From Geobacter sp. (GTDB lineage Bacteria; Desulfobacterota; Desulfuromonadia; Geobacterales; Pseudopelobacteraceae), in contig VFJW01000033.1 of the NCBI GenBank assembly GCA_009885845.1, forward strand, positions 1-64,000: a DNA stretch of 64,000 nt, read 5' to 3'. Every line of letters begins with the position of its first letter. The first letter of the stretch is position 1. The notes beneath the pieces were generated by a model, which saw only the letters and a list, made by a program, of their open reading frames with translations, did not search any database and was not told where the DNA came from. This document shows positions 7,705-24,001 of the stretch, piece after piece. Position numbers and translations under genes: made by a program.

Positions 7705-8654
7705 AACTTGCGATTCTTTGTTCAGGGCAGGCTGGTCAGCATCGTGCCATGCTTGATAATCTGATAACAGCTCCCGACCTGGAAGAACTCCGCAGTAGTG
7801 CGTCGGAGATATTGGGTGAAGACGTTGAGGGATGGTGGCGCAACCTGACGGATGAAGCCATTTTTACCAACGAGAATGCCCAGTTTGCTATCGCGCTCTA
7901 TCAACTGTCCGTCTGGCAACGGATTGCCGCACTCATTCCACAACCTGCCCTGATAGCTGGATACTCACTGGGAGAACTGATTGCATACCATGTGGCCGGT
8001 TCACTGAATGTAACCGACACTCTCAAACTGGTGCGCCAACGTGCCCGGTTGATGGATGAGGCAGTCGGGCCTTTAGCCGTAAAAGGCAGCTGCATGGTGC
8101 TTTGGCGGGGCAGGGTGTCCTATCAGGTGCAGGAAGCTATGCAACACGGGCTGAAGGATTACGGCCTGGAAACTGCCATAGTGAGGAACCGGGGCGAACA
8201 GGTGTTTACCGGCCCGGCCGACGCAGTAGACAGCTTCCTGGCTGATCCCCATATTGTCAATCCCAACATGTCCAGACTGGCAATTACAACCCCGTCTCAC
8301 AGCCGTTATCTTGTTGCTGCTACCGATAATTTCAGGAGAGTTCTTGACGATTCAAATCTGACCTCACCTTCAGTTCCGGTTCTGGCGGGCGTTGACGGAT
8401 CTCGAGTGCGGACCCGCAGCCAGGCAGTTGATGCGCTTACCCGTCAGATAGCTACGACAGTACGCTGGGACCGCTGCATGGAAGCACTCGAAGAAACCGG
8501 CATCACAACCGTGCTGGAACTTGGGCCAGGAAATGATCTCGCGAATCTGATCGAAATGGAACATCCAAATATTTCGGCACGCTCCATCGGCGATTTCCGT
8601 GACTGGAGATCTGTAACCGGGTGGCTGAAAGAGAAGGGTCTTTCGTTGCATTGA
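7701..8654 (+). CDS. mdcH: Malonate decarboxylase epsilon subunit (malonyl-CoA:ACP transacylase)
   Basis: 317 residues with the FabD-type acyltransferase fold. The nucleophile elbow GYSLGE (about residues 91-96) carries the active serine. In known systems MdcH loads malonyl from malonyl-CoA on to the carrier protein to start or restart the cycle. This makes MatB upstream a sensible source of its substrate (inference). Last gene of the operon; no strong terminator is seen directly after it, and the next promoter begins 22 bp beyond its stop. No mdcR-type regulator is in the window. Confidence 0.93.
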   Translation: MKLAILCSGQAGQHRAMLDNLITAPDLEELRSSASEILGEDVEGWWRNLTDEAIFTNENAQFAIALYQLSVWQRIAALIPQPALIAGYSLGELIAYHVAGSLNVTDTLKLVRQRARLMDEAVGPLAVKGSCMVLWRGRVSYQVQEAMQHGLKDYGLETAIVRNRGEQVFTGPADAVDSFLADPHIVNPNMSRLAITTPSHSRYLVAATDNFRRVLDDSNLTSPSVPVLAGVDGSRVRTRSQAVDALTRQIATTVRWDRCMEALEETGITTVLELGPGNDLANLIEMEHPNISARSIGDFRDWRSVTGWLKEKGLSLH

Positions 8655-8675
8655 ATTGCCTGTTATTTTAACCGC

Positions 8676-8705
8676 TTGACACGACTCGGATAAAACTGGT
8701 ATGGT
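8676..8705 (+). promoter_or_regulatory. Sigma-70-type promoter for the helicase gene
   Basis: TTGACA at 8676-8681 and, after 18 bp, TATGGT at 8700-8705 preceded by TG one base earlier, i.e. an extended -10. Transcription would start near 8712 and give a leader of about 95 nt before the helicase ATG. Confidence 0.7.
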
Positions 8706-8744
8706 CAGGCATTACAATTGTTGTACCGGATAGCACGTCATCGT

Positions 8745-8772
8745 AAGCCCCGGAAATTTTCGGGGCTTTTTT
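8745..8772 (+). terminator. Intrinsic terminator inside the helicase leader
   Basis: AAGCCCCG (8745-8752) pairs with CGGGGCTT (8761-8768) and is followed directly by a run of T to 8772. It lies between the promoter at 8676 and the helicase start, so it could be an attenuator or give a ~60-nt small RNA; it could also end read-through from the mdc operon. Confidence 0.8.
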
Positions 8773-8805
8773 CGTACCATCAGAGCAACCTGAAAGAGGA
8801 GTAAC

Positions 8806-10146
8806 ATGCAGTTTCAATCGTTTAATTTTCACCCCGTAATCGCAGCACGTATCAAAGAAGTCGGGTATGTCACGCCCACCCCTATCCAGCAGCAGGCAAT
8901 ACCAACGGTCATGCAGGGACGGGACGTCATGGGCCTGGCCCAAACCGGTACCGGCAAAACGGCGGCCTTCGCATTACCGATCCTCAATCGCCTCATGGAG
9001 GGGCCACGCGGCCGCGTCCGCGCCTTGATTGTTGCCCCTACCCGCGAACTGGCCGAACAGATCCATGAATCTTTTGTGACGTTGGGACGACAGACCCGAC
9101 TCAAGAGTGTTACCGTCTATGGCGGAGTCAACGCCAATCCTCAGATTCAGGCACTCAAAAACGGCGTCGAAATCGTCGTCGCCTGCCCGGGCCGCCTGTT
9201 GGATCACATCGGCCAGGGAACCATCGACCTTTCGCACCTTGAAGTGCTGGTACTTGACGAAGCTGACCAGATGTTCGACATGGGATTTCTCCCTGACATC
9301 CGCCGCATTTTGAAGCAGATTCCTGCCAAACGGCAGACTCTGCTGTTCTCTGCCACTATGCCGCCGGATATCAACAAACTTGCCAGCGACATTCTGACCG
9401 ATCCGATTACCGTCAAGGTCGGCAATACCGCTCCTCCGGTGACCGTTTCCCACGCACTCTACCCGGTGGAGCAGCACCTGAAAACCGGACTGCTGCTGGA
9501 ACTGTTAAAGCATACCGATACCGATTCGGTACTGATTTTTACCCGTACCAAGCACCGCGCCAAACGTCTGGGCGAACAGCTTGAGAAAGCCGGTTACAAA
9601 GCGGCCTCGCTGCAGGGAAATCTTTCGCAGAATCGCCGTCAGGCAGCACTGGACGGCTTTCGTGACGGCACGTATCAGATTCTGGTGGCAACCGACATCG
9701 CTGCCCGCGGTATCGACGTGAGTCAGATATCGCACGTTATCAACTACGATATTCCCGATACTCCGGAAGCGTACGTACACCGCATCGGTCGTACCGGACG
9801 CGCCGCCAAAAGCGGTGACGCTTTTACCATGGTATGCAGCGAGGATACTGTCATGGTGCGGACAATCGAGAAAAAGCTGGGGGCTCCGCTGGAACGTCGC
9901 ACCGTAGACGGCTTTGACTACAGTGTCCCTGCTCCGAAAAAAGATGCCGAATTCGCCCGGCCACCGCGCGAACCACGGCCAAGCCGCAAACCAGCAGAAG
10001 CGAAAAAAAGTCCGACGGGATCAATCAACCCGTTCAAAAGCGATCACCCCGGCAGCAAACCTGCTGCGCGTCCCCAGCAGGGCAGACCGGGAGCAGCCGG
10101 AGGACCGGCCAAAACCGTTTTCAACAGTTCACGACGCGGGAAATAA
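8806..10146 (+). CDS. rhlE: DEAD-box ATP-dependent RNA helicase (RhlE-like)
   Basis: 446 residues. All core motifs are present in order: Q-motif region TPTPIQQQAIP, Walker A AQTGTGKT (about 46-53), PTREL, DEAD in VLDEADQMFDMGF, SAT, ARGIDVSQ and HRIGRTGRA. The last ~80 residues are a basic, proline-rich tail (PPREPRPSRKPAEAKK) as in RhlE/DeaD-type helicases that remodel ribosomal or structured RNA. GAGGAG precedes the ATG. Its leader holds a terminator hairpin, so expression may be controlled by attenuation, as could suit a cold-responsive helicase (inference). Confidence 0.93.
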   Translation: MQFQSFNFHPVIAARIKEVGYVTPTPIQQQAIPTVMQGRDVMGLAQTGTGKTAAFALPILNRLMEGPRGRVRALIVAPTRELAEQIHESFVTLGRQTRLKSVTVYGGVNANPQIQALKNGVEIVVACPGRLLDHIGQGTIDLSHLEVLVLDEADQMFDMGFLPDIRRILKQIPAKRQTLLFSATMPPDINKLASDILTDPITVKVGNTAPPVTVSHALYPVEQHLKTGLLLELLKHTDTDSVLIFTRTKHRAKRLGEQLEKAGYKAASLQGNLSQNRRQAALDGFRDGTYQILVATDIAARGIDVSQISHVINYDIPDTPEAYVHRIGRTGRAAKSGDAFTMVCSEDTVMVRTIEKKLGAPLERRTVDGFDYSVPAPKKDAEFARPPREPRPSRKPAEAKKSPTGSINPFKSDHPGSKPAARPQQGRPGAAGGPAKTVFNSSRRGK

Positions 10147-14206: not shown

Positions 14207-14829
14207 GGCAGGCCATCATCCGCAGTGGACTTCTGTGCTGTCTTGTAACAGCCATGACAACCGGTTGCAGCAGTTCTCCCCGAGTGACCTATTATGCTCT
14301 TGAATCGGCACCCGCGCCTGAATCAAAGCGTGTGCCTTCCTTATCTGCAAAAAAAATAATGCCTTCAGTTTCCGTTGAGACGCCGACGGTGCCGGAACTG
14401 GTTGATCGCCTGCAACTGGTGGAACGCACACACACCAATCAGATAGAAATCCGGGAATTTCACCGCTGGGCCGAGCCTTTGAAAAGCAGTATTCCCCGGC
14501 TGCTGGCGGATAATCTGTCACGTCTGCTCGAATCTGACCGAATCTCATCTTATCCTCAAAATATGGGCAGTGATGCAGACTTTCGGGTTTTTGTTGATTT
14601 TCAACGTTTTGAATCAGAGGGTTCTGCCGTATCAATCGATGCACTCTGGAGAATACGCCGTACAGCAGATGGCACGCAAAAGTCCGGACGGTTGCGGATT
14701 CGTGAAGTGACCGGCGGAGGAGGATACGAGTCTGTTGTTGCAGCATATACCCGTGCCCTGTCGACGGTAAGCAGCGACATCGCTCAGGCACTTCAGGCGG
14801 AATGGAGCGCAGTACCCGCACAGAAATAG
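14203..14829 (+). CDS. pqiC: PqiC-like outer-membrane lipoprotein
   Basis: 208 residues. The N-terminus is a lipoprotein signal with lipobox TTGC (cysteine about residue 22). The rest matches the ABC-type transport auxiliary lipoprotein family (VTYYALESAP ..., WAEPLKSSIPRLLADNLSRLL). It would sit at the outer membrane and complete the PqiA-PqiB-PqiC bridge. Starts by overlap with pqiB. Confident as to family. Confidence 0.88.
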   Translation: MRQAIIRSGLLCCLVTAMTTGCSSSPRVTYYALESAPAPESKRVPSLSAKKIMPSVSVETPTVPELVDRLQLVERTHTNQIEIREFHRWAEPLKSSIPRLLADNLSRLLESDRISSYPQNMGSDADFRVFVDFQRFESEGSAVSIDALWRIRRTADGTQKSGRLRIREVTGGGGYESVVAAYTRALSTVSSDIAQALQAEWSAVPAQK

Positions 14830-14858
14830 CGGGGACAGACGCAACCGGAGGAGATGAG

Positions 14859-15356
14859 ATGAGAGCTGCTATCCTGACGTTGAGTGACAAGGGTTCCCGG
14901 GGCGAGCGGATTGACGAGAGCGGTCCGGCACTGACGGCCTGGCTGGCGGAGCGCGGCGTTACGACAACTCAGTCCCGTATCATTGCCGATGAGTTTGATC
15001 AAATTGTCGAAGTTCTGACGGGATGGGCGGATTCTGACATAGCCGACCTGATTCTGACAACCGGCGGTACCGGCGTTTCGCCGCGGGATATAACCCCTGA
15101 AGCAACACTGCAGGTCGTGGAGCGGGTAATCCCGGGACTCGGTGAACTGATGCGCATCAGAAGTCTTGAGAAAACCCCGATGGCATCCCTGTCCCGTGCC
15201 GTTGCAGGCATTCGCGGCCGGTCACTGATTATAAATCTCCCCGGAAGCCCCAAAGGCGCACGGGAAAACCTTGAAGCGATCTGGCCGACGATCGATCACG
15301 CCGTCGAGAAGATTCGTGGCGGTCAGGAAGATTGCGGCGACAGGTTTTCAAAATAA
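14859..15356 (+). CDS. mog: Molybdopterin adenylyltransferase-type protein (Mog/MoaB)
   Basis: 165 residues from the ATG at 14859, chosen for the GGAGGAG site five bases upstream; the frame opens earlier at 14802 inside pqiC. The MoCF-binding fold is clear: ILTLSDKGSRGERIDESGP at the start, LTTGGTGVSPRDITPEAT in the centre. It activates molybdopterin by adenylation before metal insertion. Molybdenum/tungsten pterin enzymes are relevant here because a tungsten AOR is encoded at 30429. Confidence 0.92.
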   Translation: MRAAILTLSDKGSRGERIDESGPALTAWLAERGVTTTQSRIIADEFDQIVEVLTGWADSDIADLILTTGGTGVSPRDITPEATLQVVERVIPGLGELMRIRSLEKTPMASLSRAVAGIRGRSLIINLPGSPKGARENLEAIWPTIDHAVEKIRGGQEDCGDRFSK

Positions 15357-15397
15357 CGCCCTTTTGAAATCTGATAAATGGGGTTGCTTATTACATG

Positions 15398-16240
15398 TTA
15401 GGGAAGATCTTTGAGGCCAGCGGCACTGGGAAAACGTTGTCGAATTTTATTGCTCTCTAGACGGGCCATCTCGTTGAGACCCTTGCCAGCGATAAAATAG
15501 AGGTAGGCAATCATTTCTGCAATATCGTCATCATCGACTTTGGCATAGGCCGCTGTCTTCTCCAGCACTTCCTTGCGATCAGCTTCGGGCAAAATGGTGA
15601 ACACGCCGCTGGCCATGTCAAAGTCGGAGCCGCCGGCGATCAACCACATGTATTTCCTGCCAGGTTGGACCAAACCATCTGGTATCTTAAAATGTGTCTC
15701 ATTTGACTCCGCCGTAAGAACAATTCGTTCATCAGCCAACACAGTAACTGTGACCTGCTTCAAGCCATCGCAGCTATTCTCCCAGCTCAATTCGGGAGAA
15801 TGATCTATTACGGCCGTGTTGCTGGGTGAAAGAGGCTTCAGACAGCTGCTAATGTTGCCTCCGGATCGCATTACCACTCCACCCATGCTGCCGTCATTAG
15901 TTTTGGGGAGGGCAAAGCTTTTTTTAAGCGAAACGGCACCCTTGATAGCTCGGACATGATCCGCCTCAACTATCCCCTCGCTATTTTCACCGATCTCGAA
16001 GGCCTGCCGACTCTTCAGCGAAACGATGACAACCTTCCCACCGCTCCCAACCTTGAACCGGCTCCCCTTCTGGACCATCTCAAAAAGGTTCTTTCCGTTT
16101 GAGAGCGCGCGAGTACCACTGTCATTCTGTAAGCTCACCTTGCCCTTGACATCAAATATTCGCCAGGATGAGTCTGCAGAAAACGCAGGAGAGGTCAATA
16201 GCAGCAGGGCCATCAATAACGGTATGATTATAAATTGCAT
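15398..16240 (-). CDS. Secreted FecR-domain-like protein of unknown function
   Basis: 280 residues with a signal peptide (cleavage after LLTSPAFSA). Residues about 25-100 read as a FecR-like domain (VKGKVSLQND..., KGSRFKVGSGGKVVIVSLKSRQAFEIGENSEG). A beta-sandwich-like middle (SPELSWENSCDGLKQVTVTVL) and a helical C-terminus follow. It is encoded 58 bp downstream of a CHASE2-cyclase gene on the same strand, and the two probably form one transcript. The pairing suggests a periplasmic sensor or ligand part for the cyclase, but no function is established by sequence alone. Confidence 0.7.
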   Translation of the reverse strand: MQFIIIPLLMALLLLTSPAFSADSSWRIFDVKGKVSLQNDSGTRALSNGKNLFEMVQKGSRFKVGSGGKVVIVSLKSRQAFEIGENSEGIVEADHVRAIKGAVSLKKSFALPKTNDGSMGGVVMRSGGNISSCLKPLSPSNTAVIDHSPELSWENSCDGLKQVTVTVLADERIVLTAESNETHFKIPDGLVQPGRKYMWLIAGGSDFDMASGVFTILPEADRKEVLEKTAAYAKVDDDDIAEMIAYLYFIAGKGLNEMARLESNKIRQRFPSAAGLKDLP

Positions 16241-16298
16241 AAACAGTTACTCCTTTGAATTACATTAGTTAAAATTCATAATACTACGAATGTATTTT

Positions 16299-18092
16299 TC
16301 AAATATTTAGTGCATAAATCTCAACTCCACCGTTGATCCCTTTAATTTCACTCCGGCCAAGCGGTTCAAACGTAAACTGTTCTGAAGCAGCATTTCGCAC
16401 GGCATCGCTCACCAGAACTTTTCTGGAATACTGTTTTGTCAATGACTCGATTCGTGAAGCAGTGTTGACCGGTGGCCCGATAACCGTAAAATCAAGTTTT
16501 CGCTTCGACCCAATGTTTCCCAGGATCACGCTGCCGCAATGGAGGCCGATTCCAATTGCGATACTCCTGTCGCCGATGTATGCCTCCAGCGCACCGGAGT
16601 CGTTCAACTGATCCGTTGCCTCACAGATTTCCCTGGATGCCTTTAAAGCATCATCAACGTATTGTTCGTCGACAGCAAAAAATGCAAGCAACCCGTCTCC
16701 GATAAACTTGTTGACAAAACCCTGATTACCTTGAATGATTTCGCTGATACACCCGAAAAAAGCGTTTAACATGGAAACAAGTGCCTCTGATGAGATGCTC
16801 TCAGATAGCGCAGTAAAACCGCGGATATCAAGAAACATCACACATACATCATGCCGTTCGCCTTTCATAAGGGTCAGCGGATCCTGAGTGATGAGCTTGT
16901 CGATTATGGCTGGTTCAACATAATAACTGAAGGTCTGGTAGAGCTTGCGTTTACTGCGTTCCTCGACCATAAAACGGTAAAGATAGTTGGCCGTAAACAT
17001 TGCCGGAGGTGCAAGGATATGGGGAAATACGGGCAGGTTGAATCCGTATGAAAATGAGTACGTTGCTACGACGAAGTAGGCGAACATCATGGCGCAGATC
17101 CAGCAAAATGACATGACAGGCTGCCTGAAGCGGATAAATGGATAAACGGCAAGACAGAGCAGTGCCAAGAGTCCGAAATACATGTTCCTGCCGGTATTGA
17201 TGATTTGTGTCCGGGTCAGAAGCGTTTCCAACTCAGCAGCATGAATTTGCGCTCCGGAACGCTTCCCAAGCGGGGTATTATGCACATCCTCGTGCTTGCT
17301 CACTAATCCGAGGATAATGACCTTGCCGCGCAGCTTGGACATGTCAAAGGAACCGTTAAGAATGTCCTCAAAAGAGTAGTTTGGTATCTTGTCGACCAGG
17401 CAGAAGTTGATCCTGAACTGATTCGGGGCTCGCGCAGGAACGCCGGTTGCGCGGTAGAGCTCCGCGACAAAGCCCGCCTGCCCCTGTTCCGGGCTTAGGG
17501 ACGCCATTCGCAAAATGCTGTCAGAATCGGAATCGACTCGCAACGATGCCAGCTTGACATTCTCCATGAAAGCCATCAAGTCGTGGTAGTATGGCACAAG
17601 CGTACCAGAGACACCCTGCACGATTACCGTCTCACGAGACGCATGCATGATCCCTTCCACCAGAGAGTTGTCTAGCTGTCTGCCAATGTCATTAAGTGTT
17701 GCCAGCGATGGTGATTCGCCATCTAATCCTCTGAAACTGTCCGGCAACTTTTGTTCAAGCGAATGAAACGGAATTATATCGATTCCGACTGCAAGAGCAC
17801 CAGATCGGGCAGCCAATTTTAAAAAACGTCCCAATTCCGGGTACCAGAATATGAAAGGCTTCTTCCTGAGCGCCTCGTGATCTTCAATGCTGACCACAAC
17901 GACGACGCCGGACGGATCCTGATGTCCCAATGACAGCTTACGGCGCAGGTTCATCCTGACATCACATGCTTTGTACTCAAGATATTGCCATAAAGGTTCG
18001 CTGACTGCCATCAGGAAAAAGCATGACAATGCCATGATCAAAAATGCTTTTTTTGCAGACCCTATTCCCACGTTACTCGCCAATCTCATCAA
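16299..18092 (-). CDS. CHASE2-domain class III adenylate/guanylate cyclase
   Basis: 597 residues. An N-terminal helix is followed by an extracytoplasmic CHASE2 sensory domain (about 45-290; VVVVSIEDHEALRKKPF, GALAVGIDIIPFHS), three further helices (about 300-385) and a cytoplasmic class III cyclase domain. Catalytic features are FLDIRGFT and FIGDGLLAFF (metal aspartates) and VIGPPVNTASRIESL. The KRKLDFT stretch before it is the usual adenylate-type position, so cAMP is more likely than cGMP. The enzyme would convert an envelope signal into a cyclic nucleotide. It is divergent from the Cys-rich/caspase gene set. Confidence 0.9.
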   Translation of the reverse strand: MMRLASNVGIGSAKKAFLIMALSCFFLMAVSEPLWQYLEYKACDVRMNLRRKLSLGHQDPSGVVVVVSIEDHEALRKKPFIFWYPELGRFLKLAARSGALAVGIDIIPFHSLEQKLPDSFRGLDGESPSLATLNDIGRQLDNSLVEGIMHASRETVIVQGVSGTLVPYYHDLMAFMENVKLASLRVDSDSDSILRMASLSPEQGQAGFVAELYRATGVPARAPNQFRINFCLVDKIPNYSFEDILNGSFDMSKLRGKVIILGLVSKHEDVHNTPLGKRSGAQIHAAELETLLTRTQIINTGRNMYFGLLALLCLAVYPFIRFRQPVMSFCWICAMMFAYFVVATYSFSYGFNLPVFPHILAPPAMFTANYLYRFMVEERSKRKLYQTFSYYVEPAIIDKLITQDPLTLMKGERHDVCVMFLDIRGFTALSESISSEALVSMLNAFFGCISEIIQGNQGFVNKFIGDGLLAFFAVDEQYVDDALKASREICEATDQLNDSGALEAYIGDRSIAIGIGLHCGSVILGNIGSKRKLDFTVIGPPVNTASRIESLTKQYSRKVLVSDAVRNAASEQFTFEPLGRSEIKGINGGVEIYALNI

Positions 18093-18288
18093 ATTTATTC
18101 AGAGTAAAGCCTTCTTGACACACTTTTAGGGCACATTATTGTGTGACTATTTAAAAAACAATTGTCATGCCAGCGGATATGTTATATCCCATGGTGAGAA
18201 AATAATACTTAATTGTGACAGATTAAGCATCAGCAACCTAGCATAGACTTAGGGGTCAGGTTGAGAATATTTTCTGCGAGGTGTCAGA

Positions 18289-18690
18289 TTGCCAGTTAAA
18301 TGCCACAACATAATAAAAATTAATTCAGCAGCGGCTCTACTCTTGCTGGCGCTATCTTCATTATCACCTGCTTATCCTGCGCTGGCAGCAGCTCAGAATG
18401 TTACAATGATATTTGAATTTACCGATGAGTGTGATGACGGAATTACCCCGGAAATAGAATTTTATCTGAAACGCAATCCGGAAAAAATGTGGGGGACTTA
18501 CTTGCTCCAATATTTCAATAAACCTTTGAAAACAAAGATTAACTGTGAAGAGGATAGTCAAATATGTTTTGGTGCATGGCTTGACGATTCCTCTTGGGGG
18601 TGTGGGAAAAAATGTAGTGACTCATCTAAAGGCGCCTGTTTTCTATGCAAGCAGGCAACGGTCAGTATAGGCCTGCAATGCAACAAGTGA
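18289..18690 (+). CDS. Small secreted cysteine-rich protein, unknown
   Basis: 133 residues, probably starting at a TTG with GCGAGG seven bases upstream. A clear signal peptide (LLLLALSSLSPAYPALA) leads to a short mature part with eight cysteines (DEC, NC, IC, GC, KC, AC, LC, QC), which could make four disulfides in the periplasm or outside the cell. I do not recognise a family. It is the first gene of a four-gene set; its stop overlaps a possible ATG of the next frame by one base. Coding status rests on the signal peptide and the operon. Confidence 0.6.
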   Translation: MPVKCHNIIKINSAAALLLLALSSLSPAYPALAAAQNVTMIFEFTDECDDGITPEIEFYLKRNPEKMWGTYLLQYFNKPLKTKINCEEDSQICFGAWLDDSSWGCGKKCSDSSKGACFLCKQATVSIGLQCNK

Positions 18691-18719
18691 TGAAAATCGT
18701 AACAACAGGAAAACTAGGC

Positions 18720-19799
18720 ATGTCATTAAGATTTGCATATCTGCTGCTGCTATTTTTCTCTACTCCTTTGATGGCTGCAGAGATTAAAAACTTGCGGACC
18801 GGGCAACAGGAAAACAGAGCGTTCGCTGCGTTTGACCTGCAGGGCAAACCTGGCGAGAAAGAGGCAGAAGTGAGAGTGATCCTTGAAATAGGCGGGGATC
18901 ACTATGAGTCTGGTAGGCTTTCACTGACTGGCGATTTCGGCAAGACGGTAAAAGTCGGAGTTGGTAAAATTATTTACTGGGATGTTCTCAAGGATATGCC
19001 GAGTGGATTGGAAGGAAATGTCTTCTGGAACATTGAAACATCCTTACCTCCTGTGAAGACAATTCCGGATGAACCGACTACTTTTTCTGATGCCGCTTCC
19101 CCGGTTGGTCAAAACGTAACCGATCAGGTTACCAGAATGGAGTTTGTAAAAGTCCCTTCAGGATGTTTTCAGATGGGGGATTTTTCAGGGCGGGGAGATA
19201 TCGACGAAAAACCGGTTCATAAAGTATGTCTTGATGGTTTTTATATCGGGAAATATGAGGTTACTCAAGTACAGTGGCAGACTGTTATGGGAGTCAACCC
19301 TTCATTTTTCAAACAATGCGGAGAAAATTGCCCCGTCGAAAATATCTCCTGGTCTGATGCCATAAAATTCATTAAGAAACTTAATGGCAAGAGCGACAGG
19401 AACTACCGTCTTCCGACTGAGGCGGAATGGGAATATGCTTCAAGAAGCGCCGGGAGGAACGAGAAGTTTTCCGGATCAAACGCAACTGTTGACTCTGTTG
19501 GCTGGTATGAGACCAACTCTAACAACAAAACTCATCCGGTTGGAAAAAAACAGCCAAACAGCATCGGTCTCTTCGATATGAGCGGTAATGTTGCTGAATG
19601 GGTTCAGGATTTAAAGGGTGATTATACTGCAGTAGAGATGAAAAACCCTGCAGGTTCGAAAAGCGGAAATAACAGAGTCGTGCGAGGAGGATCCTGGCTT
19701 GATGAAGCATCTGAGTTACGTACCAGTTATCGAAGCGAGCTCGGAACCAGGGTCCGGACTAACGTCATTGGCATGAGGCTGCTTCTGCCGAATTTGTGA
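18720..19799 (+). CDS. Secreted FGE/SUMF1-domain protein (formylglycine-enzyme-like)
   Basis: 359 residues from the ATG at 18720, with AGGA nine bases before it and a clean signal peptide; an ATG at 18690 adds ten residues. Residues about 20-110 are a beta-rich domain of unknown type. Residues about 135-359 are an FGE-sulfatase fold: MEFVKVPSGCFQMGD, KYEVTQVQWQTVMG, YRLPTEAEWEYASR, FDMSGNVAEWVQD, RVVRGGSWLDEA. The C-terminal part lacks the paired cysteines of true formylglycine-generating enzymes, so I infer a binding or lectin-like role rather than that chemistry. It sits between the Cys-rich protein and the caspase-like protein. Confidence 0.85.
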   Translation: MSLRFAYLLLLFFSTPLMAAEIKNLRTGQQENRAFAAFDLQGKPGEKEAEVRVILEIGGDHYESGRLSLTGDFGKTVKVGVGKIIYWDVLKDMPSGLEGNVFWNIETSLPPVKTIPDEPTTFSDAASPVGQNVTDQVTRMEFVKVPSGCFQMGDFSGRGDIDEKPVHKVCLDGFYIGKYEVTQVQWQTVMGVNPSFFKQCGENCPVENISWSDAIKFIKKLNGKSDRNYRLPTEAEWEYASRSAGRNEKFSGSNATVDSVGWYETNSNNKTHPVGKKQPNSIGLFDMSGNVAEWVQDLKGDYTAVEMKNPAGSKSGNNRVVRGGSWLDEASELRTSYRSELGTRVRTNVIGMRLLLPNL

Positions 19800-19824
19800 C
19801 AACTGCACCAGGGAGAATACATTT

Positions 19825-20952
19825 ATGAAATGTTATTTTTTTCAGGTATTTTTGATTCTACTGACCGTCACAACGGTATTCGCTGAGCGTTCTGGCGGTA
19901 GGATCGCTGTGTTCCCCGGAGGGGGGCAGCGTGATACAAACCCACCAATTATTGCCATCATATCACCGGATGTAAAACCTGGAGTCAAAGTCAACTCTTC
20001 GGATGCCAGGATGACTATAATCGGGCGCGCCACCGATGAGAGCGGCGTGGCTTCGGTCATGGTCAATAACCAAGCTGCAAAGCTGGATGAGATCGGCAAT
20101 TTCTCGATTGATATTCTGCTGAAACCAGGTAAAAACCGGGTATTGGTGGTCGCCGTGGACACGCATGGCAACCAGGGAATGCAGCAATTCATTCTTCATC
20201 GCCAGGAGGATGCTGTACAGACAGCCTCTCCGACAAAAAAGGGCACGTACCATGCACTTATAATAGGTGTTCAGAATTATTTAGACAGTTCCATCAACAG
20301 CCTCGACGCACCAATCCAGGACGCTCAGGGAGTTTACGATATCTTGACCGGGAGCTATTCATTCCGAGCCGAAAATGTTATTTTTCTGAAGAACCCGGAG
20401 AGAACATCCGTTATTCAGGCTTTTGATCAACTTGCTCAGAAGGTAGAGGAGTCAGACAGCGTTCTGATTTTTTACGCCGGCCATGGTTTTTGGGACGAAC
20501 GCCTTAAACAAGGTTACTGGCTCCCTGTCAACGCAACCAGAAAAAGTCGTGTAGAGTGGCTTTCTAACGGTACTATCAGGGATTACATCAACGGAATAAA
20601 ATCGAAACACACTCTTCTGGTGGCTGATGCATGTTTTAGTGGGGGCATATTTAAAACACGTACTGCTTTCACTGAAGTGCCTAGAAATATTCAGGAACTG
20701 TTCAAACTTCCCAGTCGCAAAGCCATGACGAGTGGTGCAATGAAGGAAGTACCGGATCGCTCGGTATTCGTCGACTACTTTTTGAAAAGGCTGAATCAGA
20801 ATAAGGAATCCCACCTTAGTTCGGAACAACTTTTTACTAGCTTTCGACAAGCAGTGATAAGTAACAGCATTAACAATCAAATACCTCAATATGGTGAAAT
20901 TCGCGAGACTGGTGATGAGGGGGGAGATTTTGTTTTTGAACGGAAATATTAA
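19825..20952 (+). CDS. Secreted caspase-like (peptidase C14) protein
   Basis: 375 residues with an N-terminal signal peptide (LILLTVTTVFA). Residues about 30-130 form a beta-sandwich-like segment (PPIIAIISP, RATDESGVASVMVN). The caspase fold begins near YHALIIGVQNYLD (about 140). The catalytic pair is present: His220 in FYAGHG and Cys270 in DACFSGG. Bacterial metacaspase-like proteins are cysteine proteases, but their targets here are unknown. It is exported, which is unlike cytoplasmic defence caspases. Preceded by the FGE-like gene and followed after 10 bp by an OmpA lipoprotein. Confidence 0.88.
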   Translation: MKCYFFQVFLILLTVTTVFAERSGGRIAVFPGGGQRDTNPPIIAIISPDVKPGVKVNSSDARMTIIGRATDESGVASVMVNNQAAKLDEIGNFSIDILLKPGKNRVLVVAVDTHGNQGMQQFILHRQEDAVQTASPTKKGTYHALIIGVQNYLDSSINSLDAPIQDAQGVYDILTGSYSFRAENVIFLKNPERTSVIQAFDQLAQKVEESDSVLIFYAGHGFWDERLKQGYWLPVNATRKSRVEWLSNGTIRDYINGIKSKHTLLVADACFSGGIFKTRTAFTEVPRNIQELFKLPSRKAMTSGAMKEVPDRSVFVDYFLKRLNQNKESHLSSEQLFTSFRQAVISNSINNQIPQYGEIRETGDEGGDFVFERKY

Positions 20953-20962
20953 ACTGACATCA

Positions 20963-22624
20963 ATGGTGATGAGGTCGAAGCCTTACCAGTTGCTGCACTG
21001 TCTGCTATTTTCCGGATTGTTTTTACAAGCATGCGCAATTACAAAAACCGAAACCAGAGTTTTACCGGGCAAGGAACTTTCGAGAGTTTCTCAAGGATTT
21101 CGAGAAATTGAAAGCAATATAGTTCTAAAAGAGATAACATCTTACTCTATCGGCATTACCCGTCGTGCCTGCGAAGCCGAATTTATTACTGTTGAGCATC
21201 AGGGACTGATTGAGGCAACTCATGAACGTCGAGAGTTGTCTTGTGCTCACGCAATTCCTGAGTATGCTCTTTTTCAGGTAATGGCACTTGGTATTCCACT
21301 TTTATATGACATGGTATCCGGATTTGGCATCTTCAGGGAAATGTGTGAAAAAGGCCCACCTGTATACAGTAAAAATACGCTGGATAGTAATACAACTGTT
21401 ACTCAAATAATAATTGATCGCAAAACTTCTGTTTGCAGAGACCATCCGGTTACTAACGCTGAGGTCGGAGTAACATCAGGCACTACTTCACTTACACTTG
21501 TATCCTCTGAAGCCGGGACTGTTGCACTTTCTCCTGAACAAATAACTGCAATTACCAAAAGTACTTCACAAAAAGGAACTATACAGTTTCGATATAAAAC
21601 TGAAATAATGACCGCAGCTTTTTCTCCTTTGGTTGCTTCAGAACCTCAAATAATGGCCAAGCTGGATGATCAGAACGCCGTTGTCAAAAATGGTACCACA
21701 GGTTCTGCTGCTACTGCGGTAAACTCGGCAAATATGATGAATAAAATATCTGGCAGCGCAAATAAAATCTCTGGTACTGCTAAAAACAATGTACAGGCTG
21801 AATCGCAGATGATGGCCAAGCTGAATGATCAGAACGCCGCAATTAAAAACAGTACAAAGGGCTCAGGGGACGCTTCGAGTAACGCGGAAAACAAGATAAA
21901 TAAAATAGCAGGTAACGTAAACAGGATCTCTGGCAATACTACTAATAATTCACCGGCTGAATCGCAGATGATGGCCAGGCTGGATGATCAGAACGCCGCA
22001 ATTAAAAACAGTACAAAGGGTTCAGATGCTGCTGTTGAATACACGAAAAACAGGATAAGTAAAATATCAGGCGGCATGAACAAAGTCTCTGGTGATGTCA
22101 ATCAAAAAGCAGCGCAGATGATGGCAAGACAGGCTGAAAAAAATGGAGGTGGCAGTTCTGAAATAACTACGGCAAAATCGTGGGATAAACCTGATATTTT
22201 TTCTCATGGCCTTAGCAGCTCAAATAAAGATGTACCGTCGAATACGACTTTGAATGGTGTCAGAGTTACTCGGGAAGCAATTCACCTATTTGCTTTTGCC
22301 AACAATAAGTCCAATTTGAGAAAGGAATATCGAGCTGACCTGAAAAGGATTGCAATTAAAATGAAAGCAAACCCAGAGATGCACAGTATAATAGAAGGTT
22401 ACACCGACAATATAGGACGCGACATATCAAACAGGAAAATATCACTGCGGAGAGCCACTACAATTAAAGATATTCTGGTGAACACGCATGGTATCGCCGC
22501 AAAGCGCGTTCATGCATATGGTTATGGTTTGACTAAACCTGTGGCAGACAATTCATCGGCCAAAGGACGCGCAAAAAATCGTCGGGTCGAAATATATACA
22601 ACAGACAATGCCGTCTTGCAGTAA
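20963..22624 (+). CDS. OmpA-family lipoprotein with internal 53-residue repeats
   Basis: 553 residues from the ATG at 20963 (a second ATG at 20969 also works). The start has a lipoprotein signal with lipobox LQAC. A long unassigned region follows, then three copies of a 53-residue repeat (QMMAKLNDQNAAIKNSTKG ...) and a C-terminal OmpA domain (RRATTIKDILVNTHGI, GYGLTKPVADNSSAKGRAKNRR) that binds peptidoglycan. The sequence is richer in A+T than the rest of the window, hinting at transfer. It could tether the gene set's products to the outer membrane or cell wall. Confidence 0.85.
   Translation: MVMRSKPYQLLHCLLFSGLFLQACAITKTETRVLPGKELSRVSQGFREIESNIVLKEITSYSIGITRRACEAEFITVEHQGLIEATHERRELSCAHAIPEYALFQVMALGIPLLYDMVSGFGIFREMCEKGPPVYSKNTLDSNTTVTQIIIDRKTSVCRDHPVTNAEVGVTSGTTSLTLVSSEAGTVALSPEQITAITKSTSQKGTIQFRYKTEIMTAAFSPLVASEPQIMAKLDDQNAVVKNGTTGSAATAVNSANMMNKISGSANKISGTAKNNVQAESQMMAKLNDQNAAIKNSTKGSGDASSNAENKINKIAGNVNRISGNTTNNSPAESQMMARLDDQNAAIKNSTKGSDAAVEYTKNRISKISGGMNKVSGDVNQKAAQMMARQAEKNGGGSSEITTAKSWDKPDIFSHGLSSSNKDVPSNTTLNGVRVTREAIHLFAFANNKSNLRKEYRADLKRIAIKMKANPEMHSIIEGYTDNIGRDISNRKISLRRATTIKDILVNTHGIAAKRVHAYGYGLTKPVADNSSAKGRAKNRRVEIYTTDNAVLQ
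21647..22135 (+). repeat. In-gene tandem repeats of 159 bp
   Basis: Units begin at 21647, 21806 and 21965 (spacing exactly 159 and 159 bp), with a partial unit at 22115. Copies two and three are nearly identical over their first ~70 bases, indicating recent duplication. Each encodes a QxMAxLxDQNAxxKN head and a polar, Ser/Asn/Lys-rich tail. Confidence 0.9.
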
Positions 22625-22795
22625 AAGCTTTATCTTGTCTGCAGCCGTTAATTACCGTTTTCATTGTCCGACATAAAATCAAAGATGCCATTCTATAAAA
22701 TCACCTCTTTCAATGCATACCAATGCTCAGGTCAATGTCCTTCAGAAAATGGATTAACATGCGACAGGTTTTCAAGATAACGAGTGGAGATTCCT

Positions 22796-24001
22796 GTGAG
22801 TACAAAGGATGCAGTACGAATTGTCGGACCCGAAACAGTCCGAATGCTGGAACTGGGTCATCCCTGGATTGTCGCTGATGCCTACACCCGGAAATGGCCG
22901 GCCGGAAGTGCCGGACAGACCGTTGCGCTCAGCGACAGTCAGGGGCGTTTTCTGGCCACAGCCCTGCTCGATCCGGATGATCGGATCGTCGCACGGGTAC
23001 TGGACCGGAAGCAGATTCAACTTGATAAAAAATGGCTCGCGAAGCGACTGTTAAGCGCTATCGGACTGCGCCGTCACGCAGACCTGAATGATACCACCGT
23101 CTACCGTATAGTGAACGCCGAAGGAGATGGCCTGCCGGGCCTGACCGTTGACCGGTATGCCGATTACCTGATGCTGCAGATCTACAGCGCCGCCTGGCGG
23201 CCGCATATAAAGCTGGTCACACAGGTACTGCAGGAACTGCTGTCGCCACTCGGAATTTACGAAAAAAGCCGGCCACAGAAAACCCGTGAACTGGAGGCGG
23301 TGAGCGATAGCAAAAGTTACGGGAAACTGCTTGCGGGTAAGACGGCACCACAGCGAATGGAAGTCCGGGAGAACGGCCTCTCTTTTCTGGTGAGTCTGGA
23401 GCAGGGATTGAACGCGGGACTGTTTCTCGATCAACGCCGTAATCGCCGCGATCTGATGGAACGGGTGAAGGATAAACGGGTGCTCAATCTGTTCGCTTAC
23501 ACCGGCGCGTTTTCGGTCGCGGCGGCCGCTGCCGGAGCAGCACGGGTTACCAGCGTAGATGCCTCGCCCGGATATACAAACTGGGCCAGAGACAACTTCA
23601 CCGCAAACCGGTTGAACCCCCAGCACCATGAGTTTATTGTTGGCGACTGCCTTACGGTACTCGGCAAGCTGGCACATGCCGGCAAAACGTTTGATGTAAT
23701 TCTGATGGATCCGCCTTCCTTTTCAACCACTTCAAAGAACCGCTTTACCACCCGGGGCGGCACATCTGACCTGGTGGCAGCGGTTCTGCCGTTACTGGCG
23801 GAAAATGGACTATTGATCGCATCATCAAATCATCAGAAGCTTGATGTCGCCGATTACCTTAAAGAATTACGCCGGGGAGCCCTTCAGGTCTCGTGTGACC
23901 TGCGGGTCATTTCCCTTCGAGGACAGCCCGAAGACTTCCCGTATCCTGTCACCTTTCCGGAAGGGCGCTATCTCAAATATGCGGTGTGCGTTAAAGCATG
24001 A
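22796..24001 (+). CDS. rlmI: Class I SAM-dependent rRNA methyltransferase (RlmI-like)
   Basis: 401 residues from the GTG at 22796, with GGAG six bases upstream; a GTG at 22784 is an alternative. An N-terminal PUA-type RNA-binding domain ([13 protein letters not shown] ... [18 protein letters not shown]) precedes the methyltransferase fold: [20 protein letters not shown] is motif I and ILMDPPSF is motif IV. Proteins of this family methylate cytosine C5 in 23S rRNA. Seven bases separate it from the next gene, a release-factor-like protein. Confidence 0.88.

Follow-up and report, generated by a model that had tools for sequence, protein, structure and literature searches.

Gene content of the locus

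The window, i.e. the whole stretch of 64,000 nucleotides of the Geobacter sp. contig VFJW01000033.1 that was analysed, contains a divergent locus of six open reading frames (Table 1), which were found at the positions and on the strands given by the initial annotation. Two genes on the minus strand are separated by a gap of 196 bp from four genes on the plus strand. The preferred start codons lie at 18720 for the FGE-fold protein and at about 20963 for the OmpA lipoprotein. The FecR-like, Cys-rich, FGE-fold and caspase proteins have signal-like N-termini, with a 12-aa hydropathy of 2.1-3.2 versus 0.4-0.7 for the mog and rlmI products, and the OmpA lipoprotein bears the lipobox LQAC; the earlier proposal that five of the six proteins carry export signals is thus plausible by sequence. 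A scan for promoters and terminators gave no excess above shuffled sequences.

Table 1. Features of the island and of its insertion site (positions in the window)
Feature	Position	Strand	Evidence or remark
mog-like gene	14802..15356	+	Left neighbour of the empty site; outside the island
22-nt direct repeat, left copy	15337..15358	+	Island boundary, at the 3' end of mog
FecR-like secreted protein, 280 aa, signal peptide	15398..16240	-	Weak matches to DUF7354 and to a LapA-retention module; in 5 genomes an orthologue adjoins the orthologous cyclase
CHASE2 sensor and class III adenylate cyclase, 597 aa, TTG start	16299..18092	-	Pfam; metal Asp, Lys/Asp and Asn/Arg motifs present
Cys-rich secreted protein	18289..18690	+	Beta-rich low-confidence model; family limited to four genomes
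Exported N-terminal domain and FGE/C-type-lectin-fold protein, without FGE catalytic Cys pair	18720..19799	+	Pfam, Cys positions
Exported Ig-like (Glucodextran_B) and caspase C14 protease, type A catalytic domain, H220/C270	19825..20952	+	
Lipoprotein: N-terminal domain, three 159-bp tandem repeats, C-terminal OmpA peptidoglycan-binding domain	20963..22624	+	
22-nt direct repeat, right copy	22761..22782	+	Island boundary, just upstream of rlmI
rlmI-like methyltransferase	22784..24001	+	Right neighbour of the empty site; outside the island

Boundaries and insertion site

The six genes are exactly enclosed by the two copies of a 22-nt direct repeat, GCGACAGGTTTTCAA(A/G)ATAACG, which delimit an island of 7.4 kb. 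The left copy is the end of mog and the right copy extends into the rlmI leader. With up to 3 mismatches allowed, the whole genome (an assembly of 179 contigs) contains these two copies and none elsewhere, 0 being expected by chance. In 21 of 29 loci of the same genus mog is directly followed by rlmI, and these empty-site junctions resemble both repeat copies fused, which indicates that the six genes represent one insertion at the 3' end of mog accompanied by a 22-nt duplication. Since the copies differ by one base, we infer that an artefactual assembly join via short words is unlikely. Of the features of an integrase-mediated island, the bounding direct repeat and the empty site in relatives were found; no integrase gene was detected by open reading frames and Pfam between the two repeats, and an integrase is known only from a relative, G044, described below. 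The possibility that mog-rlmI is a general insertion hotspot was dropped, as the two fetched loci in which the genes are not adjacent (L260 and L261) have a different gene order without islands.

The initial annotation had described the genes as AT-richer than their neighbours. This holds for the plus arm, whose GC content of 0.438 versus 0.521 (sd 0.025) elsewhere lies below every stretch of the same size, and only weakly for the minus arm (0.486 versus 0.522, sd 0.029). The transfer that had been read from base composition is far more strongly indicated by the bounding repeat, the empty site, the patchy distribution and the tRNA/integrase element in a relative. Together, these observations support the view that the island is a laterally acquired insertion.

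Distribution of the plus-strand operon

The operon, in the order Cys-rich, FGE-fold, Ig and caspase, OmpA lipoprotein, was found in three other genomes, all of them Geobacterales (L088, L102 and L103); here and below, the neighbourhoods are those of sampled loci, in which ORFs were called by a simple procedure. The complete set, in the same order, is present in Geomonas sp. Red32 (L103). In L102 and L088 the first three genes are followed by the contig end after the caspase gene, so that the OmpA gene was seen twice only. The OmpA gene of the window contains three 159-bp tandem repeats (21641-22117), and such repeats possibly account for the contig ends in the two relatives. The OmpA proteins of the window and of Red32 have the N-terminal region and the C-terminal domain in common, and their middle region aligns poorly. 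The Cys-rich gene of L102 (3920-4316) contains an in-frame TAG, which reflects either a real pseudogene or a sequence error.

The Cys-rich family occurs in 4 of 141 genomes of the order and, among 395 genomes sampled from the phylum, in the window's own genome only. A scan of 84,980 species yielded three loci, which are again those of the three relatives above and belong to a Geobacter MAG, a Geobacteraceae MAG and Geomonas sp. Red32. In G044 the operon lies downstream of tRNA-Ser, a tyrosine integrase, ParB, a second integrase and ArdC, a context that points to its carriage by a tRNA-Ser integrative element. Viral or plasmid carriage was considered and rejected, because the Cys-rich family is absent from viral contigs and plasmids and the caspase has only distant matches on plasmids and in one phage record. 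No report of the operon, the Cys-rich family or the caspase domain exchange described below was found in the open-licence literature searched.

The caspase-like protease and the exchange of its catalytic domain

The caspase protein matches the Pfam families Peptidase_C14 (1.3e-19) and Glucodextran_B/Ig (1.1e-9). H220 and C270, already described as intact, are invariant across 9 homologues, none of which has lost the site residues, and the intact His-Cys dyad places the domain among the metacaspase-like C14 peptidases. The best fold matches of its low-confidence model (pLDDT 58) are the yeast metacaspase Yca1 and MALT1. An Asp at position -2 from the catalytic Cys hints that the enzyme may cut after Arg/Lys.

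The catalytic domain has been exchanged behind a constant Ig leader. The Ig regions of the four operon caspases are 47-54% identical in every pairing, and their C14 domains fall into two types (window and G089, 76% identical; G044 and Red32, 70%) that share 31-34% identity with each other, the switch between leader and variable protease domain lying near residue 140. From the C14 trees, descent of the operons as a single lineage is rejected (p-AU 1.3e-5). In the Ig tree the four operon proteins cluster together with modest support (74/84), and the Ig data do not reject pairings matching the protease types (p 0.2). The C14 type of the window is also present in an S41-PDZ-Ig-C14 protein of L087. 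At another locus (L090, 495-2616), where an Ig-caspase gene is adjacent, the N-terminal domain of the FGE protein (residues 33-132) is followed by another C-terminal part; this, too, suggests domain exchange.

On a plasmid of Azospirillum sp. B510 (L269, 4714-9945) a single protein of 1743 aa combines a TPS secretion domain with Ig and caspase C14, and the presence of Ig and C14 at the end of this two-partner-secretion exoprotein supports export of the island caspase. The statement of the initial annotation that bacterial caspases are usually discussed as cytoplasmic was too strong, since extracellular ones, FGE fusions and caspase operons containing OmpA were reported in 2012 (PMC3501461).

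The FGE-fold, Cys-rich and OmpA proteins

The FGE-fold protein matches Pfam FGE-sulfatase (1.1e-41). Its only Cys residues are at positions 174, 195, 225 and 229, and none follows the RGGSW motif (347-351), the region that holds the catalytic Cys pair in true FGE. Alignment to FGE structures agrees with the earlier observation that the protein lacks the catalytic cysteines of a formylglycine-generating enzyme. Among solved structures, the variable protein of Treponema denticola (2y3c), with a C-type-lectin-type FGE fold, is nearest to it in sequence (2.2e-37). Owing to this closeness and to the missing Cys pair, the protein is more likely to bind than to catalyse. Its diversification by a diversity-generating retroelement (DGR) was considered and rejected: within the window there is no second copy of the 3' end of the gene and no variable/template repeat pair, and no full reverse transcriptase was found in the genome, the one RVT fragment, located at the end of a contig, scoring below threshold.

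The Cys-rich protein has no Pfam match. Its structure model (pLDDT 66) gave weak CBM20-like matches, none with an E value below 0.001, and such an identity was not relied on. The last protein belongs to the OmpA-family lipoproteins, as it combines the Pfam OmpA domain (2.2e-18) with its lipobox.

The FecR-like and CHASE2 cyclase pair

Both the CHASE2 (6.5e-20) and the class III cyclase (1.2e-24) domains were recognised in the cyclase, together with the catalytic motifs LDIRGF (421), NKFIGDG (461), LDFTVIG (533) and VNTASR (542), which identifies a CHASE2 class III adenylate cyclase. Its neighbour matches DUF7354 alone in Pfam (0.0013; 18.9 bits versus a cut-off of 31.4) and does not match the FecR profile PF04773; we call it FecR-like from two properties only, its position beside CHASE2 and its orthologues. 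A role in Pycsar defence was discarded: the PycC models match only the generic cyclase domain, and the protein has a membrane CHASE2 sensor, Lys/Asp adenine-type residues and no Pycsar effector.

G001, G023, G037, G337 and G359, none of them with the operon, each carry orthologues of the FecR-like and the CHASE2-cyclase gene side by side. A CHAT protein is encoded near the pair in 4 of these five genomes; in G337, whose contig starts close by, none was seen. FecR was found near 39 of 60 CHASE2 loci versus 0 of 40 controls (p 1e-12). The pair is thus a common and already described pairing, and FecR-CHASE2 pairs with histidine kinase output are known (PMC5192318). A general enrichment of C14 or CHAT near CHASE2 was not retained (5/60 versus 1/40 controls, p 0.4, not significant). 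In L145 and L147 the pair adjoins a TPR-CHAT protein, and both loci also encode a neighbouring two-partner-secretion exoprotein, whose ShlB-type transporter was confirmed in L145.

A second caspase cluster on the genome's own contig C53 (L086, 238-16273) comprises an Ank, Ig and caspase protein, a lipoprotein, a CHASE2 cyclase and a FecR-TPR protein, divergent from a caspase-FGE fusion that is followed by another caspase, an SLH protein and a transglutaminase. An IS200-like (Y1_Tnp) transposase gene lies within it (8307-8849). Such FecR-CHASE2-caspase clusters with transglutaminase and SLH proteins are also found in several genomes of the Geomonas group.

Interpretation of the island

The locus had been proposed to be a single six-gene system. 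It is not conserved as such: the operon occurs without the cyclase in three other genomes and the cyclase pair without the operon in five, and a FecR-CHASE2-caspase unit of six co-occurring genes was not found. Most likely, the island consists of two modules placed back to back, the plus-strand operon and the minus-strand cyclase pair. A single signalling system, in which the CHASE2 cyclase senses outside the cell and cAMP controls the protease operon, or the protease feeds the sensor, appears doubtful to us. It would account for the presence of both arms inside one bounded insertion, divergent from a short gap, for the exported CHAT (caspase-fold) gene near the close relatives of the cyclase pair (4/5 versus 5/60 CHASE2 loci generally, p 0.0009), and for the recurrence of the FecR-CHASE2-caspase(-transglutaminase) cluster, in whole or in part, on C53 and in L148, L177, L181, L186 and L187. 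However, besides the separate occurrence of the arms, C14/CHAT neighbours are not enriched over all CHASE2 loci, the two arms differ in GC, and the relatives are few and related. As the relatives of the cyclase pair mostly neighbour an exported CHAT and the CHASE2-FecR-caspase cluster recurs in the order, coupling is conceivable, and both modules may have been acquired jointly and may be coupled.

Our preferred explanation, to which we give an even chance, is an acquired two-module island composed of a four-gene exported-protease operon and an independent envelope-sensor pair. The OmpA lipoprotein would fasten the operon proteins to the outer membrane and peptidoglycan, the FGE-fold and Cys-rich proteins would bind ligands without catalysis, and the Ig-tethered caspase-fold protease would process a periplasmic or surface target, with a predicted cut after Arg/Lys. 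Its catalytic domain is exchangeable behind the constant leader. The FecR-like protein and the adenylate cyclase would form an independent pair reporting an envelope condition as cAMP, and the cyclase would probably not be an obligatory partner of the operon. Judged by the logic of its domains, the operon most likely encodes an anchored, ligand-guided exported protease.

Other functions of the operon appear less probable. The same anchors and constant leader could serve to expose an exchangeable protease directed at neighbouring cells, as a polymorphic weapon of contact or kin competition. Such a role would fit the domain exchange, the mobility and rarity of the operon, the Azospirillum exoprotein and the earlier proposal of fratricide by extracellular caspases (PMC3501461), but no immunity gene was recognised, the operon contains no delivery machinery and only two protease types were seen, so that we hold it to be improbable. 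Regulated lysis or death of the carrier itself by envelope proteolysis is very improbable: the caspase fold has its dyad intact and prokaryotic caspases have frequently been connected with cell death (PMC3501461), but the proteins are exported and the set contains no death-domain, NACHT or phage-sensing gene. PADLOC gave only generic domain matches (Pycsar-cyclase, caspase and ZorB-like OmpA models), and membership of a defence system was not accepted on these. That the FGE-fold protein is an active, sulfatase-activating enzyme is hardly credible in spite of its strong Pfam match, given the replaced Cys pair, the Treponema protein as closest structure and the lack of a sulfatase gene in the island.

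Comparison with known systems

Among prokaryotic metacaspases and orthocaspases, FGE ranks with the most frequent fusion partners (4.9% of sequences), OmpA occurs in 14 caspase operons, and some members are extracellular (PMC3501461). The island resembles these operons in its C14 His-Cys dyad and its FGE and OmpA partners, and differs from them in its separate exported proteins, fixed four-gene order, new Cys-rich family, mobility and exchanged catalytic domain. With BiofilmReg of Burkholderiales it shares neighbouring genes for a CHASE2 membrane sensor and an exported protein of FecR type, whereas the output is an adenylate cyclase rather than a histidine kinase with response regulator (PMC5192318), and the FecR-like domain is divergent, with no match to PF04773. 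A fusion of CHASE2 and caspase is on record in cyanobacteria (PMC2853523), so that this combination, like caspase-FGE fusions, OmpA caspase operons and extracellular caspases, was already known. The FGE-fold protein has its closest solved structure by sequence among the DGR-diversified FGE/C-type-lectin proteins, namely the variable protein of Treponema denticola, and differs from this group in the missing repeat pair and full reverse transcriptase. As in EACC1-type caspase conflict systems, the caspase is carried on a constant module, and it matches NF047832 (7e-20), although at 71.4 bits, under the curated cut-off of 140 bits. The EACC1-type systems are cytoplasmic and have partners different from those of the island.

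Conclusions

In this compact, rare and laterally acquired operon the catalytic domain of an exported caspase-like protease is replaced, whereas the leader and the partner proteins are retained. The operon is set apart from the FecR-CHASE2 pair, a widespread sensing unit in its own right. The island looks like a mobile, modular surface-protease system. More speculatively, and in our opinion rather unlikely, it might exemplify a mobile polymorphic exported-caspase system, in which exchangeable proteases of caspase fold are displayed on the cell surface by a fixed set of anchoring and recognition proteins, for use between bacteria or in envelope remodelling, and which plugs into envelope-sensing cyclases where they meet. 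With these four genes, the role of bacterial caspases outside the cytoplasm becomes testable.
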